DNA from: Desertivirga brevis
GTDB taxonomy: Bacteria > Bacteroidota > Bacteroidia > Sphingobacteriales > Sphingobacteriaceae
Assembly: GCF_017355835.1 (NCBI RefSeq)
Contig: NZ_JAFEWF010000006.1
Coordinates: forward strand, 248,001 to 312,000
Direction of reading: 5' to 3'
Length of the DNA stretch: 64,000 bases
The notes beneath the pieces are model-generated. The model was not told the origin of the DNA. It worked only from the letters and a program-made list of their open reading frames with translations, and did no database searches. A program made the translations under genes and the position numbers. Below, piece by piece: positions 42,211 to 48,152 of the stretch (positions are counted from its first letter, which is position 1; each line of letters opens with the position of its first letter).

Positions 42211-42249
42211 GTAATAAAGGGAGCCTAATGCTTAGACTCCCTTTATTAC
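42211..42249 (-). terminator. Terminator-like hairpin after aroC
   Basis: A 13-bp stem (GTAATAAAGGGAG with CTCCCTTTATTAC) plus an inner CTAA/TTAG pair overlaps the aroC stop codon. It is symmetrical and could work for both strands; the T-rich end of the stem stands in for a U tract. Confidence 0.7.
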
Positions 42250-43340
42250 TATAAATATGCGTTTTGTCTTAAGTAATGATCAGCAATAGTCAGTGCTGCC
42301 ATTGCTTCGACAATTGCTACTGCGCGAGGTACTACACAAGGGTCATGACGCCCCTTACCTTTAATCTCGGCTGCGTCTCCTTCCTTATTAACCGTATTTT
42401 GGTTGTGCATGATAGTTGCTACAGGCTTAAAGGCTACCCGGAATGTAATGTCCATGCCGTTCGCGATTCCACCCTGGATACCACCTGAGAAATTTGTAAG
42501 TGTGCTCACAGGTTTTCCATTTGAAGAAGGTTGAAAGATATCATTATGTTCAGAGCCTCTCATCTCAGACCCTTCAAAGCCGGAACCGTACTCGAAACCG
42601 TGAACAGCATTGATACTTAGCATGGCTTTCCCAAGATCTGCATGAAGCTTGTCAAACACCGGCTCTCCTAAACCGACAGGACAGTTACGGATAATGCATG
42701 AAACCTTTCCACCAACTGTATCGCCAGCTTTACGAACAGAATCAATAAACTCTATCATTTCATGAGCTGTTGCGGGGTCTGCACACCGAGCAATATTGCT
42801 TTCACGGATATCAAGTAGCTCATTTAAATCAGAAGGATCAATATTTGGGGCAGTTATAGTCCCAACTGAAGATACATGAGCGAAAACTTCTACTCCTTTT
42901 TGTTTTAGGAACAGCTTCGCTATCGCACCAGCCGCTACACGTGCTGCAGTTTCCCTGGCTGACGAACGACCGCCACCCCGGTGATCTCTTATTCCATATT
43001 TCGACTGATAGGTATAGTCGGCGTGGGAGGGGCGGAAAATATCTTTGTTATGATCATAGTCCTTGGACTTTTGATCTTCATTAGGAATAACCAATGCAAT
43101 AGGGGTGCCCGTGCTTTTTCCTTCAAAGATTCCGGAAAGGATCTGTGCAGTGTCACTTTCTTTTCTTTGAGTAGTTATCTTGGATTGACCAGGCTTGCGT
43201 TTATCCAGTTCACTTTGAATAAATTCAAGGTCAAGTTCAACATTAGGAGGGCAACCATCAATGATTACTCCTATTGCTGCCCCGTGCGATTCCCCGAATG
43301 TTGTGATGCGGAACAATTGTCCGAATGAGTTACCTGCCAT
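42249..43340 (-). CDS. aroC: Chorismate synthase
   Basis: From ATG at 43340 (a TTG frame goes to 43409) the 363-residue enzyme removes phosphate from EPSP to give chorismate, using reduced FMN. Signature segments are [39 protein letters not shown] and, near the end, [20 protein letters not shown]. It is the last gene of the pheA-aroF-aroA-aroC unit, 78 bases after aroA. The early start proposed by the longer frame adds 23 residues that precede the conserved [16 protein letters not shown] opening. Confidence 0.95.
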
Positions 43341-43418
43341 TTGTGAAATGTGAGTTGTGAGTGTCACAAAATTCAAAACGCGAAACAGGTGTCCCGTTTC
43401 ACGTCTCAAATTTCTTGA

Positions 43419-44669
43419 CTAGTATTTAAATCCAGCTTTTTTAAGATCCTCCCAGAATGATGGGTAAGATTTGCCCACCACTGCCGGCTCCTCAATTTCA
43501 AGCTGTTTTATTTTTAAAGCCAAAGGTGCAAAAGCCATTGCCATCCTATGGTCTTCATAAGTTTTGACTGTAATCTTATCAGGGAAATGAAGGCCTGCAC
43601 AATCTAAATGATAATGTTCGTTCTCTTCATTTAACTTTACCCCAATCTTAGCAAGCTCATTTTGAAGAGCAGCAATGCGATCAGTTTCCTTGATCTTTAA
43701 TGTTTCAAGTCCGGTAAAAGTAGCATTATGCCCTAGTACCGCACTAACCACAATCACCGTCTGAGCAAGATCAGGGCAATCTTTCAAATCAAAAAAGTTT
43801 CCCTTAATCTCGCTGGTGGTTTTGCTTAACTCCAATCCTTCAGGAGTAAATCGTGTAGTGATACCGAAGCTTTCCATGATCTGACAGATCCGGCTATCTC
43901 CCTGTAAACTGTTCTCCTTCAAATATGGAAGTGAAATAGAGCTTTCTTCAGATAAAGCTACGATGGAGTACCAGTAGGAAGCTGCACTCCAGTCTGGTTC
44001 AATTGTAATTGCTGAAGATTTAAACTCTTGAGCAGGGATAGAAATAATCGAACCGTCCCACTGATGAGAAATTCCTGCTTCAGCCAGCATGGCCAGTGTC
44101 ATTTCTACATAGGGCCGGGAGGTTAATTCACCGTCAATAGTCAGTTCGAGGCCCTGAGAAAGGGAAGGTGCTACCAATAATAATGCGGTAATAAATTGAG
44201 AACTGATGTTCCCTTTTATGCTGATCTTATGTGTCTTTTGTTCGAACGAAGGTTGGAACTTTAAAGGTGGGTAACCTTCTTTTTCAACATACTCTATTTC
44301 TGCTCCAAGACTGCGAAGTGCATCTACCAGGATGCCTATCGGACGTTGTTTCATCCTTTCGGTTCCAGTGATCACAACTTCCTGACCCGTGGTTGCAAAA
44401 TAAGCGGTAAGAAAACGCATTGCTGTACCAGCAGGACCGATATCTACTGTAGGAATTCCTGAAGCAACGGCGTTGGTCCTTCTGGCCTCCAGAATAGAAT
44501 TCAGGGTTACTGTATCATCAGCAGAGGAAAGGTTTTTTACTTCCACCTTTCCTTTGCTTAATGCGTTTAATATCAAGGCCCTGTTGCTCTCACTTTTTGA
44601 ACCCGTAAGATACGTGGTGCAAAAAGTGTTCTTTTCGGGCTTTGAAAGTATTAACACAGGATGACTCAT
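43419..44669 (-). CDS. aroA: 3-phosphoshikimate 1-carboxyvinyltransferase (EPSP synthase)
   Basis: The 416-residue enzyme joins PEP to shikimate 3-phosphate. Motifs are TGSKSESNRALILNALS, GPAGTAMRFLTAY and LKIKETDRIAALQNELAK. It starts one base after the aroF stop, so the two are tightly coupled. The GTAMR segment differs from the glyphosate-sensitive class I pattern (LGNAGTAMR) only upstream, here VDIGPAGTAMRFLTA, as in other Bacteroidota. Confidence 0.95.
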   Translation of the reverse strand: MSHPVLILSKPEKNTFCTTYLTGSKSESNRALILNALSKGKVEVKNLSSADDTVTLNSILEARRTNAVASGIPTVDIGPAGTAMRFLTAYFATTGQEVVITGTERMKQRPIGILVDALRSLGAEIEYVEKEGYPPLKFQPSFEQKTHKISIKGNISSQFITALLLVAPSLSQGLELTIDGELTSRPYVEMTLAMLAEAGISHQWDGSIISIPAQEFKSSAITIEPDWSAASYWYSIVALSEESSISLPYLKENSLQGDSRICQIMESFGITTRFTPEGLELSKTTSEIKGNFFDLKDCPDLAQTVIVVSAVLGHNATFTGLETLKIKETDRIAALQNELAKIGVKLNEENEHYHLDCAGLHFPDKITVKTYEDHRMAMAFAPLALKIKQLEIEEPAVVGKSYPSFWEDLKKAGFKY

Positions 44670-44670
44670 G

Positions 44671-45774
44671 TTATTCTACTACAGTTTTATCGTTCATGAT
44701 CGCAGTTTGTTTCTTAATAGACTCGCCGTGGATCAATTCTAATAATTTTGTAGTAAACTCTTCGTCCAGATTAAGTGCTTTTGCGAAACTGGCACGTTTT
44801 TCTAACACTTCGTCCCAACGGTTAAGCTGTAGGATAGTGATATCGTTATCTCTTTTGTACTCACCGATCTTCTCAACAATTTTCATTCTTTCAGCAAGTT
44901 TCTGAATGATTTGGTCATCAAGTTTGTCGATTTGCTTACGAAGCTCAGCTAATTTATCAGATACAGCAGGGTTTTTAGCTTCAGGTGTACGAACTGTTAA
45001 ATGATCGATAAGATCAGATAAAGCAGCCGGAGTTACTTGTTGTTTAGCGTCAGTCCATGCAACAGATGGATCGATGTGAGATTCGATCATCAAACCGTTC
45101 ATCTCTAAGTCTAACGCTTTTTGAGAGATGTAAGGGATTAACTCACGGTTACCACAAATGTGACTTGGATCGCAGATAACTGGTAAGTGAGGAATTAATG
45201 ATTTTAATTGTATAGTAATTTCCCACATTGGCTCGTTACGGAAAGATGATTTCTCGAAAGATGAGAATCCGCGGGAAATAGCAGCTAATTTAGTGATACC
45301 AGCTCCATTGAAACGCTCTAATGCACCAACCCAAAGCTGAAGATCAGGGTTAACAGGATTTTTAACCATTACAGGAATGTCAACACCTTTTAAAGCATCA
45401 GCAATTTCCTGAACAGTGAAAGGGTTTACCGTTGAACGTGCTCCAACCCAAAGGATATCAACACCTGCAGCTAATGCTTCTTCTACGTGTTTTGCATTCG
45501 CCACTTCAACTGTTACAGGTAATCCTGTTTCTGCTTTAGCTTTCTTTAACCACTCTAAACCGATGCTTCCAATACCTTCAAATTCTCCCGGACGGGTACG
45601 AGGCTTCCAGATACCAGCACGTAAAACAGAGATCTTCCCTGTATCGGCTAATAAACGTGCAGTTGATAATAGTTGCTCTTCGGTTTCAGCACTACAAGGG
45701 CCTGCAATTACAAGCGGCTGGTGCTTTGGTGTTAACCATGCGCTTAATGGTTCTATGTTCAAATTCAGTTTCAT
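44671..45774 (-). CDS. DAHP synthase fused to chorismate mutase
   Basis: The 367-residue fusion combines a type I (KDO8P-like) DAHP synthase (residues 1-265; GPCSAETEEQLL, LRAGIWKPRTRPGEFEG, DPSHICGNRELIP) with a C-terminal AroQ chorismate mutase (about 275-360; LRKQIDKLDDQIIQKLAERM, then IGEYKRDNDI). It thus acts at the start of the shikimate pathway and at the branch to Phe/Tyr. The mutase part also often confers feedback control on the synthase. It follows pheA after 78 bases. Confidence 0.95.
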   Translation of the reverse strand: MKLNLNIEPLSAWLTPKHQPLVIAGPCSAETEEQLLSTARLLADTGKISVLRAGIWKPRTRPGEFEGIGSIGLEWLKKAKAETGLPVTVEVANAKHVEEALAAGVDILWVGARSTVNPFTVQEIADALKGVDIPVMVKNPVNPDLQLWVGALERFNGAGITKLAAISRGFSSFEKSSFRNEPMWEITIQLKSLIPHLPVICDPSHICGNRELIPYISQKALDLEMNGLMIESHIDPSVAWTDAKQQVTPAALSDLIDHLTVRTPEAKNPAVSDKLAELRKQIDKLDDQIIQKLAERMKIVEKIGEYKRDNDITILQLNRWDEVLEKRASFAKALNLDEEFTTKLLELIHGESIKKQTAIMNDKTVVE

Positions 45775-45852: not shown

Positions 45853-46683
45853 TTACACCTCGTCGTTCTTAAGATACTCTCCTAGAATCGTGAAATTAAT
45901 CGTATATCTAAGTACTTTGCGCAAGGCCTCCTCATACTTCTTATGATCCTGCCACTCAATATCCACATAGAAGTTGTATTGATTCCTTTTTCCCAAAACC
46001 GGCATCGATTGTATTTTACTGAGGTTAATTTCGTTTTCAGCAAACGCATCCAATACCCTTACTAGCGAACCTACTTCATCTGATACCTGAAAGGAAAAGG
46101 ATGCCTTATTCGCTTTTTCTATTTGAATATCTTTATTATCGGTAAGGATAAGAAAGCGGGTGTAATTTTTTTTATTTGTTTCAATACGGCGTTCCATTAC
46201 CTGAAGCCCGTACATCTCTGAAGCTAACTTATTGGCAATTGCTGCTGTGTCTGTTAACTGTTCATCACGTATCCGTTTTGCACAGGCAGCAGTGTCAGTG
46301 CTTTCAACGATATTCAGATGAGCGTGCTCATTGAAGAAGTCATCGCATTGACGAATGGCGATAGGGTGGGATTCGACACGTTTGATCTGATCAAACGTAA
46401 CACCTGGAAGTGCTAACAGATGAAGCTGAATATGAAGATAAACTTCACCAACGATAGTGAACTGGTAGTCGCGAAGAAGTGTGTAGTTAGGAAGAAGACT
46501 ACCTGCAATTGAATTCTCGATTGCCATCACTACAAAATCCGCCTCTTTCCTTTTCAGTACCTCACATGTGTGTTTGAACGAATTGCATTCAACCGTCTCG
46601 ATGTCATTACCAAAAAATTTTAATGCGGCTTCTTCGTGAAATGATGCCTTGATCCCCTGTATGGCTACTCTTTTCTTCTCCAT
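45853..46683 (-). CDS. pheA: Prephenate dehydratase
   Basis: The 276-residue enzyme turns prephenate into phenylpyruvate. It has the periplasmic-binding-like catalytic domain (VAIQGIKASFHEEAALKFF, ENSIAGSLLPNY, TDTAACAKRI) and a C-terminal ACT domain (ASFSFQVSDEVGSLVRVLDA) that binds Phe in homologues. No chorismate mutase is fused here; that domain is on the next gene. The start codon is only 7 bases after an attenuator U tract, and an aromatic-rich leader precedes it. No tyrA or aminotransferase gene accompanies the unit. Confidence 0.95.
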   Translation of the reverse strand: MEKKRVAIQGIKASFHEEAALKFFGNDIETVECNSFKHTCEVLKRKEADFVVMAIENSIAGSLLPNYTLLRDYQFTIVGEVYLHIQLHLLALPGVTFDQIKRVESHPIAIRQCDDFFNEHAHLNIVESTDTAACAKRIRDEQLTDTAAIANKLASEMYGLQVMERRIETNKKNYTRFLILTDNKDIQIEKANKASFSFQVSDEVGSLVRVLDAFAENEINLSKIQSMPVLGKRNQYNFYVDIEWQDHKKYEEALRKVLRYTINFTILGEYLKNDEV

Positions 46684-46690
46684 TTAGCTT

Positions 46691-46763
46691 AAAAAAAAAG
46701 TCCCGGCTGTTGGGCCGGGACTTTGTATATGAGTTCTTTTAGTCAAAACATATTAGTCCCGGC
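46691..46763 (-). promoter_or_regulatory. Attenuator hairpins of the pheA operon
   Basis: On the minus strand an 11-bp terminator stem (AAAGTCCCGGC with GCCGGGACTTT, loop of 6, 46724-46697) is followed by nine Us ending 7 bases before the pheA ATG. An extra copy of the 3' arm, GCCGGGAC, lies at 46763-46756, two bases after the leader stop, and can pair perfectly over 8 bases with the 5' arm GTCCCGGC. A ribosome at the leader stop would mask it and allow termination; one stalled at the aromatic codons would let the antiterminator form. The pairing is seen; the regulation is inferred from the classical model. Confidence 0.9.
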
Positions 46764-46765
46764 TT

Positions 46766-46816
46766 TTACCTAAAGTAGTAAAAGTAACCGAACCAATATG
46801 TAGTGTTGTTTTGCAT
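46766..46816 (-). CDS. pheA operon leader peptide
   Basis: The 16-codon frame is MQNNTTYWFGYFYYFR. Residues 7-15 hold four Tyr, three Phe and one Trp, broken only by Gly. It starts 16 bases downstream of a TACTTTTG box and stops just before the antiterminator arm. Known phe leader peptides in enterobacteria have the same kind of Phe run. The extra Tyr and Trp codons fit an operon that also makes chorismate for all three aromatic amino acids. Confidence 0.85.
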   Translation of the reverse strand: MQNNTTYWFGYFYYFR

Positions 46817-46832
46817 TTCTTTTTCGTTGTGC

Positions 46833-46863
46833 CAAAAGTAAATGTTTGATTTTGAATTGGCAA
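46833..46863 (-). promoter_or_regulatory. Promoter of the pheA leader
   Basis: On the minus strand TTG (46863-46861), a 20-base spacer and TACTTTTG (46840-46833) match the Bacteroidota consensus. It begins just after the pabB stop, so this is an internal promoter separating two operons. Confidence 0.6.
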
Positions 46864-46883: not shown

Positions 46884-48152
46884 CTAGGCGAGGGCTTTTA
46901 TAATAGCCTCTGCTTTTAGTAGACATTCTTCGTATTCTTTTAAAGGCTCGGATGCATAGGTTATTGCGCTTCCAACCTGGAATGAAAGGTATTGTGTACT
47001 CGAGTTATAGAGAATAGTACGTATAACAACGTTAAAGTCAAAATCGCCATTGGGTGCAAAATAGCCAACAGCCCCCGAGTACGTTCCCCTCTTACTTTTT
47101 TCAAGTGCCTCTATTAGTTCCATTGCCCGCAATTTAGGGGCTCCGGTCATAGAGCCCATAGGAAAAGCTGCTTTGATAATTTCAGCGTTATTTAATGAAG
47201 GATCTGCTTCAGATATAATGGTAGAGATCATCTGGTGGACTTGCCTGAAGCTGTAAATTCCAAAGAGTTCTTCGACTTTCACACTCCCAGGCCTCGAACA
47301 CTTAGTAAGATCATTCCTAACGAGATCCACGATCATCACGTTTTCAGATTGCTCCTTCTGGTTATTCCTAAGAGCGATTTTCAGGCGCAAGTCTTCTTTT
47401 TCATCAACGCTCCTTTTTGCAGTTCCCTTGATAGGTTGAGAGACCAGCTTACCGCCACGGCGACAAATAAATCTTTCAGGAGAAGCAGACAAAATATAAT
47501 TGCCTTCGAATTTAAAGAAGCAGGAGAAAGGGGTAGGGGAGATAGTATTCAGCTTTTGAAAGGTCTTTAAGGGATGAATCATCTGGCCTTCTGCATAGAA
47601 TTCCTGGCAGAGGTTCATCTCATAGATGTCGCCCCTTAGGATATGTTCCCTTACTTTTTCAACCGTCTGGTAATATTCGCTGAAATCAAAACGGCTTTTT
47701 ATTTCGATAGAAATTGCCTCACATGGTTCTTCCTTTATTATCTGCGAGTTAATTAACCTAAAAACTTCGTCTTCTTCAGTCGACTCCAAATAGCAAGTAT
47801 TTTTCTGTATGCGTATAAGATGCAATGGCTTGAAAAAAAACAGGTCCGGAAAGTGAACCTTATCTGGATTGTTCGATGTCAGAGATTCAACGTCGTTTTT
47901 TAGATCGTAGCCCAGAAAGCCAATTGACCATTCGCCAGGGGTAATAAAGGAGTTTAGTTGCGCAAATGAATTTTCAGCAGAGGATCTCAGTTCTTTTCCT
48001 GAACCAGCTGCTATAAGAAGATCAAAGGACGAATATGGATCCTGGTAGGAGTTGGAGTCAAAATAACAGGCTGTTTCAAATGAAACAGCCCATTGTAATG
48101 CTTTTTGTTTAAATATTATGAGTTCTTCCGGAGAAAGAGTAATGGTTTTCAT
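46884..48152 (-). CDS. pabB: Aminodeoxychorismate synthase component I
   Basis: The 422-residue enzyme belongs to the chorismate-binding family (TrpE, PabB, MenF). The C-terminal part has ILRGDIYEMNLCQEF, ASPERFICRRGGKL, QPIKGTAKR and AFPMGSMTGAPKLRAMELIE. It is shorter than typical TrpE (about 460-520). PIKGT is the signature of PabB-type covalent catalysis, while TrpE commonly has PIAGT, so folate (p-aminobenzoate) synthesis is favoured. It follows purA after 17 bases; a class IV aminotransferase that might be PabC is at 58687. Confidence 0.85.
   Translation of the reverse strand: MKTITLSPEELIIFKQKALQWAVSFETACYFDSNSYQDPYSSFDLLIAAGSGKELRSSAENSFAQLNSFITPGEWSIGFLGYDLKNDVESLTSNNPDKVHFPDLFFFKPLHLIRIQKNTCYLESTEEDEVFRLINSQIIKEEPCEAISIEIKSRFDFSEYYQTVEKVREHILRGDIYEMNLCQEFYAEGQMIHPLKTFQKLNTISPTPFSCFFKFEGNYILSASPERFICRRGGKLVSQPIKGTAKRSVDEKEDLRLKIALRNNQKEQSENVMIVDLVRNDLTKCSRPGSVKVEELFGIYSFRQVHQMISTIISEADPSLNNAEIIKAAFPMGSMTGAPKLRAMELIEALEKSKRGTYSGAVGYFAPNGDFDFNVVIRTILYNSSTQYLSFQVGSAITYASEPLKEYEECLLKAEAIIKALA

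Follow-up and report, generated by a model that had tools for sequence, protein, structure and literature searches.

Directly before pheA, on the minus strand of a 64,000-nucleotide stretch of the Desertivirga brevis genome (the window), lies what is very probably a classical ribosome-mediated transcription attenuator of the pheA operon, which most likely limits the making of the pathway to times when phenylalanine or tyrosine is scarce at the ribosome. The sequence features of a trp/phe-type ribosome-mediated attenuator are present at this site: control codons in a leader, a terminator, an exclusive and conserved 2:3 pairing, a 1:2 pairing over the control codons and a cognate gene behind them. 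Conservation, covariation and comparison with shuffled sequences lend strong support to the original prediction of a leader-peptide attenuator in which the sequence GCCGGGAC competes for the terminator's 5' arm. The 1:2 hairpin, absent from that prediction, completes the classical 1:2 / 2:3 / 3:4 switch.

Layout of the element

Read along the minus strand from 46863 to 46683, the element comprises a promoter, a leader reading frame, a first copy of GCCGGGAC, a terminator built as GTCCCGGC...GCCGGGAC, and the start of pheA. The leader ORF, MQNNTTYWFGYFYYFR, occupies 46766..46816 with its stop included (ATG at 46816, TAA at 46768-46766) and has 16 codons; codons 7-15 hold eight aromatic residues in nine codons. 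These aromatic codons form, as RNA, region 1 (46763..46801), whose outer 5' arm (46801-46788) and inner hairpin (46784-46763) are drawn from the MFE fold and from pair counts. Region 2 (46749..46763) opens with the first GCCGGGAC (46763-46756), which starts two bases past the leader stop, and continues with TAATATG (46755-46749); its partner is either region 1 or region 3. Region 3, the 5' arm of the terminator (46714..46731), consists of CATAT (46731-46727) and GTCCCGGC (46721-46714), and the core of region 4, the 3' arm, is the second GCCGGGAC (46700..46707).

The intrinsic terminator formed by 3:4 spans 46691..46724 at about -19 kcal/mol. Its stem, AAAGTCCCGGC/GCCGGGACTTT, has 11 bp (46724-46697), and its run of nine Ts, three of them inside the stem, ends at 46691, seven bases from the pheA ATG at 46683. 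Direct reading agrees exactly with what had been predicted in coordinates, leader length, aromatic content, the GCCGGGAC repeat, stem, U-run and the gap to pheA.

Genes of the operon

All genes named in this section lie on the minus strand. The first, pheA (45853..46683), encodes a prephenate dehydratase of 276 aa (NF008865, E 3.9e-58, 196.8 bits, below the curated cut-off of 219). Behind it lies a gene for a DAHP synthase fused to chorismate mutase (44671..45774), which scores below cut-off with both matching models (NF006421, 176.6 bits against 335; TIGR01803, 54.1 bits against 73.35). There follow aroA, encoding EPSP synthase (43419..44669; TIGR01356, above cut-off), and aroC, encoding chorismate synthase (42249..43409; NF003793 and TIGR00033, both above cut-off). 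As listed, aroC opens with TTG, and since the model match begins only at residue 33-34, the true start is probably further in. The attenuator very probably controls pheA and the DAHP synthase/chorismate mutase gene, and probably aroA and aroC as well. Upstream of the attenuator stands a pabB/trpE-like gene (46884-48152), which scores just below the TIGR00553 cut-off.

Conservation among close relatives

A single scan yielded 90 loci that encode a relative of pheA, of which the best 80 were kept (L001-L080); they come mostly from Pedobacter, with others from Desertivirga, Arcticibacter, Mucilaginibacter and MAGs, and together with the window they make up 81 loci. The nearest relative found is Desertivirga arenae, with a pheA 97% identical. 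A leader was located by script in 79 of the 80 relatives and by reading in the last (L075), giving 80 of 80, and the script found the terminator in every one. The order of leader, terminator, pheA and DAHP synthase gene is likewise kept in all 80, the last of these lying downstream of pheA on the same strand throughout. Among the outcomes that the original prediction had named as counting against it were related genomes in which the leader frame is lost while the hairpin stays; all 81 loci keep both.

The aromatic run is equally persistent, with eight aromatic residues in nine leader codons in 67 of the 81 loci and seven in 14. Translation initiation in Bacteroidota is largely independent of Shine-Dalgarno sites. 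The leader opens with GTG in one locus and with TTG in seven, and those starts are less sure.

This arrangement of leader and terminator is far beyond chance. Among the ORFs of 6-40 codons on either strand of the window, no other reaches seven aromatics in nine codons and two reach six; when pheA upstream regions were shuffled with dinucleotides preserved (n=1,180), 1.9% reached at least six of nine and 0.2% reached seven. The energy of the 2:3 duplex in the window, -19.0 kcal/mol, was matched by none of 200 shuffles.

The place where the leader ends takes two forms. In the window and L001-L006 the stop precedes region 2, whose end is just reached by a ribosome positioned on the stop codon; in the window, a 12-nt reach from the first base of the stop codon, the E. 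coli figure, ends exactly at 46756. In most Pedobacter the frame passes through region 2 (...SKSRD* or ...SKSRG*, with AGCCGGGAC encoding SRD) and stops right behind it. With either stop position, a ribosome finishing the leader sits on region 2.

Promoter

A promoter does stand upstream, as had been predicted from a consensus match, but it is of the Bacteroidota TAnnTTTG type rather than that of E. coli sigma-70, for which a scan gave no site at the expected place. It extends over 46833..46863 on the minus strand, with TTG at 46863-46861, a 20-nt spacer and TACTTTTG at 46840-46833, matching the consensus TAnnTTTG. Sites of this type number four in the window on both strands together, the attenuator's own included. 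TAnnTTTG occurs in the 75 nt that precede the leader start in 75 of the 81 loci, 70 of which also have TTG 17-22 nt before it; of random 75-mers drawn from the window, 3.5% contain TAnnTTTG. In a section of the work on Flavobacterium psychrophilum, TAnnTTTG is given as the -7 box of sigma-A (PMC9723704).

Pairing and covariation

Pair counts were taken from an alignment (A1) of 30 representatives of the 81 loci with less than 90% identity. The 1:2 hairpin is part of the MFE structure in all 30, at -14.1 to -24.5 kcal/mol; the window leader, cut before region 3, folds at -22.9. In all 30 folds the partners of the aromatic codons of region 1 are AGTAAGAG or a similar sequence and CCGGGACTAATATG. 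Region 2 is common to 1:2 and 2:3. In the window, 2:3 joins GCCGGGACTAATATG to CATATACAAAGTCCCGGC, and the downstream part of region 2, TAATATG, can pair with CATATT in region 1 and, in many of the loci, with CATAT or TGTAT ahead of region 3.

Strong covariation is seen for 3:4, fair covariation for 2:3 and modest covariation for 1:2, and several of the 2:3 and 1:2 measures do not exceed their controls. For 3:4, 96.4% of cells are paired and six of the 11 pairs have changed on both sides, and neither value was reached in any of 500 shuffles. For 2:3, 82.8% of cells are paired (reached by 0 of 500 shuffles), and for 1:2, 88.0% (5 of 500), with the three outer pairs of 1:2 formed in only 37-53% of sequences; when the arms were slid by 1-3 columns, 21-66% of cells were paired. 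The further pair types seen in 2:3 show no excess over shuffled alignments, 420 of 500 of which reach them, and the 17 cells of 2:3 changed on both sides compare with 18 and 20 in two slid versions. In 1:2, six pairs have changed on both sides, a number that 82 of 500 shuffles also attain and that slid versions equal, and the corresponding count of cells was 13 against up to 12 in controls. The clearest case of covariation is in L078-L080, where regions 2, 3 and 4 are altered together (GCCAGGAC / GTCCTGGC / GCCAGGAC). In L012, region 2 is likely the segment CTGGG, as judged by eye. Across this first set, the complementarity of region 2 lies beyond 95% of shuffles in 80 of the 81 loci.

Ribosome position and proposed mechanism

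In E. coli, the ribosome covers RNA to 12 nt past the first base of the codon in the A site. We modelled ribosome positions by masking the RNA up to that point, the E. coli figure being taken over unchanged. With a ribosome on the stop codon and region 4 not yet made, 2:3 is lost in 78 of the 81 loci; the exceptions are the window, L001 and L003, and what is left in the window is a residual match of -1.8 kcal/mol that does not involve region 2. With a ribosome on the aromatic codons, on average 99.4% of the aromatic codons of a leader leave 2:3 available in this model.

When no ribosome is present and the RNA ends ahead of region 4, 2:3 is the preferred pairing in all 81 loci, so that a 1:2 default rests on the order of folding. 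The full free transcript prefers the terminator in all 81, by a mean of 13.5 kcal/mol (17.9 in the window). Even with a ribosome at codon 11 the terminator is still favoured in 79 of 81, with a mean advantage of 4.3 kcal/mol and 5.1 in the window; as the terminator is favoured at equilibrium in this state too, the switch must be kinetic.

The sequence itself shows the promoter element, the leader, three helices that are able to fold and the conservation of all of these. From the layout and the folds we infer a course of events, including stalling, pausing and a kinetic choice between helices, that would lead to termination or to readthrough. Transcription would start just behind TAnnTTTG, some 10-13 nt before the leader ATG. 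When tRNA-Phe and tRNA-Tyr are charged, the ribosome would run to the stop codon and cover region 2, leaving 3:4 to form the terminator. When Phe or Tyr is short, it would stall within codons 7-15 and cover region 1; region 2, set free, would pair with region 3 as soon as this is made, the terminator would be blocked, and RNA polymerase would read into pheA. If no ribosome is present, 1:2 would form first and sequester region 2, making termination the default.

The mixture of all three aromatic residues in the window leader had been taken to read total aromatic supply. The comparison does not support this: Phe and Tyr occur in every leader, both in the 81 loci and in 42 leaders from the wider phylum (described below), and Trp in only 25 of the 81 and 17 of the 42. 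By a pattern count, the single Trp codon of the window is a Tyr codon in 53 of the 81 loci. The attenuator thus most likely senses Phe and Tyr, and we would expect that a shortage of either should be enough for the response.

Distribution across Bacteroidota

We drew 198 genomes from the phylum and found a pheA match in 172, from which 60 upstream regions were taken: those of the 58 matches ranking highest after Desertivirga arenae, and two from further down. A leader with six or more aromatics in nine codons is present in 42 of the 60, with the order of residues free. All 42 fall among the 45 best-scoring matches (L081-L125, at least 189 bits, a line set after the result was known). In the other three of these 45 (L093, L102 and L111), pheA lies directly behind aroA with no leader between them, and the aroA product is 49-51% identical to that of the window; any such control of these operons must therefore sit further upstream. 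None of the 15 lower-scoring upstream regions has a leader (L134 gave only 101 bases), making 18 of the 60 without one.

Of the 42 loci with leaders, 39 were testable for pairing, three having been dropped because the script found no terminator. Region 2 complementarity lies beyond 95% of shuffles in 30 of the 39; nine have no significant 2:3 complementarity, L105 least of all. Twenty further upstream regions from two families, chosen with paired units in mind, all have a leader with at least six of nine aromatics and a terminator. A covariance model built from A1 matches all 151 genomes of the order, 139 of them at 60 bits or above, with some overlap, as some of these genomes contributed rows of A1. 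The 30 best hits are all in loci holding pheA; the E-values of this model are rough, a single genome giving as many as 15 hits and the window itself five weak ones, and only top hits are trusted.

Relatives belonging to three or more families of the phylum retain the attenuator. We consider it likely that the element in the window is the local version of an old and widespread Bacteroidota Phe/Tyr attenuator whose logic has been kept while its sequence has been almost entirely turned over, and which in at least two families stands as two same-sense gates in series.

Tandem units and leaders for other amino acids

Eight relatives, from two other families, have two Phe/Tyr-rich leaders in series before pheA, each with its own terminator. 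In the family of G170, where 14 of the 16 members with a pheA match were examined, there are three, L107, L125 and L203; in the family of G041, where 10 of 13 were examined, there are five, L109, L213, L215, L216 and L217. The first terminator of L125 was identified by eye only, the second leader of L109 has six of nine aromatics, and the units extend up to 450 bases upstream of pheA. Two same-sense units before pheA are a more surprising observation than the single unit of the window. If true, two such gates in series would sharpen the response, and the two families with paired units provide a natural test of the second gate's contribution.

Leaders of the same build stand before other genes. 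Secondary hits of the covariance model (L175-L179; 56-57 bits, five genomes) lie before an aspartate kinase gene, with Thr/Ile leaders such as MNFNTSIITTIIITTGINQRG and a terminator; the best NCBIfam match of the L176 gene is PRK09436, aspartate kinase/homoserine dehydrogenase (a partial protein). Thr/Ile leaders with a terminator precede the same aspartate kinase gene, thrA, in three of three genomes near the window (L192-L194), and in Desertivirga arenae a Val/Ile-rich leader, MKLTVANINLSVVAIIAVVVAVVRLWRED, with a terminator precedes an aminotransferase-like gene on the reverse strand (L187). This swap of codons along with the gene is the best evidence from sequence alone that the reading of codons, and not a particular peptide, is what counts.

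We also looked for a second copy of the leader in Desertivirga arenae. A pattern search gave six matches, including the pheA leader itself; four of the remaining five were inspected by eye and did not resemble attenuators. The covariance model gave 12 hits in this genome, one of them at pheA; of eight others viewed by eye, seven were ordinary-looking terminators or unclear, and one was the Val/Ile leader.

Alternative explanations

The alternative that survives best is arrest by the nascent peptide, in which TYWFGYFYY itself would stall the ribosome, perhaps with Phe or Tyr as a ligand, and lack of charged tRNA would play no part. In most of the 81 loci the leader core T-Y-[YW]-F-G-Y-F-Y is strikingly constant; however, the same nucleotides form region 1, which can account for the constancy. 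We rank peptide arrest low because the order of residues is free outside the close relatives, the spacing of F and Y being free as well, and leaders made of other amino acids before thrA and the aminotransferase-like gene also speak against it. Taken together, these points leave it very unlikely.

A leader RNA that binds a metabolite or a protein, and so switches the terminator in the manner of a riboswitch, a T-box or a TRAP-like system, would also be structured and have mutually exclusive helices, as is seen here. Against this, no Rfam family reaches its threshold. The best of 20 weak hits is Phe_leader itself (RF01859, 30.6 bits, E 0.0061), below its gathering score of 55 bits, so that the element is not a member of that family as drawn, and the 20 hits, taken up to an E of 10, include no T-box model. 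Conservation is, moreover, poor in the linker that joins regions 2 and 3 while the reading frame is kept, and we hold a binding RNA to be even less probable than peptide arrest.

Just as improbable is that translation of the leader acts on translation of pheA, by reinitiation or by freeing of the start region, and not on termination. The T-run ends only seven bases from the ATG, and short leader-gene distances are reported to peak at 11-14 bp in Bacteroidetes in a section of PMC4833913. In the window, however, 82 nt separate the leader stop from the ATG, and in the single-unit loci of L081-L125 the distance from the end of the hairpin to the pheA match varies between 12 and 128 nt.

A plain terminator of the upstream pabB homologue, accompanied by a chance ORF and with the pheA promoter elsewhere, would suit the position of the hairpin between two genes on one strand but is scarcely tenable, as a relative of the pabB-like gene is in the flank of only one of the 80 loci (L001) whereas leader and hairpin are in all 80, as the seven bases between T-run and ATG are too few for a promoter, and as both the region 2 complementarity and the aromatic run stand above shuffles.

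Comparison with known systems

Ribosome-mediated attenuation, the reading we prefer, is a textbook principle. The closest likeness is to pheA/pheL of E. coli, whose attenuator also has an aromatic, Phe-rich leader ORF, the 1:2, 2:3 and 3:4 helices and a terminator before pheA. The window differs in that its leader mixes Phe and Tyr, in the type of promoter, and in that its pheA is not fused to chorismate mutase and has a DAHP synthase/chorismate mutase gene behind it.

Within the phylum, a section of the study of Flavobacterium psychrophilum describes a structured 5' element ahead of pheA that also occurs in other genera of Flavobacteriaceae, and "strong clues" for leader-peptide attenuation before amino-acid operons (PMC9723704). 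This element shares gene and phylum with ours and belongs to another family, and that section gives neither leader sequence nor helices. In Bacteroides thetaiotaomicron, also of this phylum, small ORFs in long 5' UTRs are described in part of PMC7366714 as "reminiscent" of attenuating leader peptides; the gene named there is one for a hypothetical protein, not pheA, and no helices are given in that part. The thr- and ilv-type leaders that we see in Sphingobacteriales have the same build of matching codons and a terminator, with other amino acids and other genes. The two leaders of mgtCBR in Salmonella sense different signals, whereas both leaders in each of the eight tandem relatives are rich in Phe and Tyr; the window has one unit. 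As in the tandem relatives, mgtCBR has two leader ORFs in series before one operon (PMC3641672). PMC2965389 makes no mention of Bacteroid, pheA or phenylalanine. Among the papers that our literature search reached, none describes the pheA element in Sphingobacteriales or its helices.

Classical attenuation works only if RNA polymerase is closely followed by the leading ribosome. These leaders thus make transcription-translation coupling in Bacteroidota directly testable, and if the attenuator works as drawn, the leading ribosome and the polymerase must keep pace in this phylum. The kind of mechanism is known and has already been hinted at for Flavobacterium pheA; the Sphingobacteriales element with its four regions is a new addition, a complete attenuator backed by comparison across relatives, from a phylum in which the papers found do no more than hint at the mechanism.
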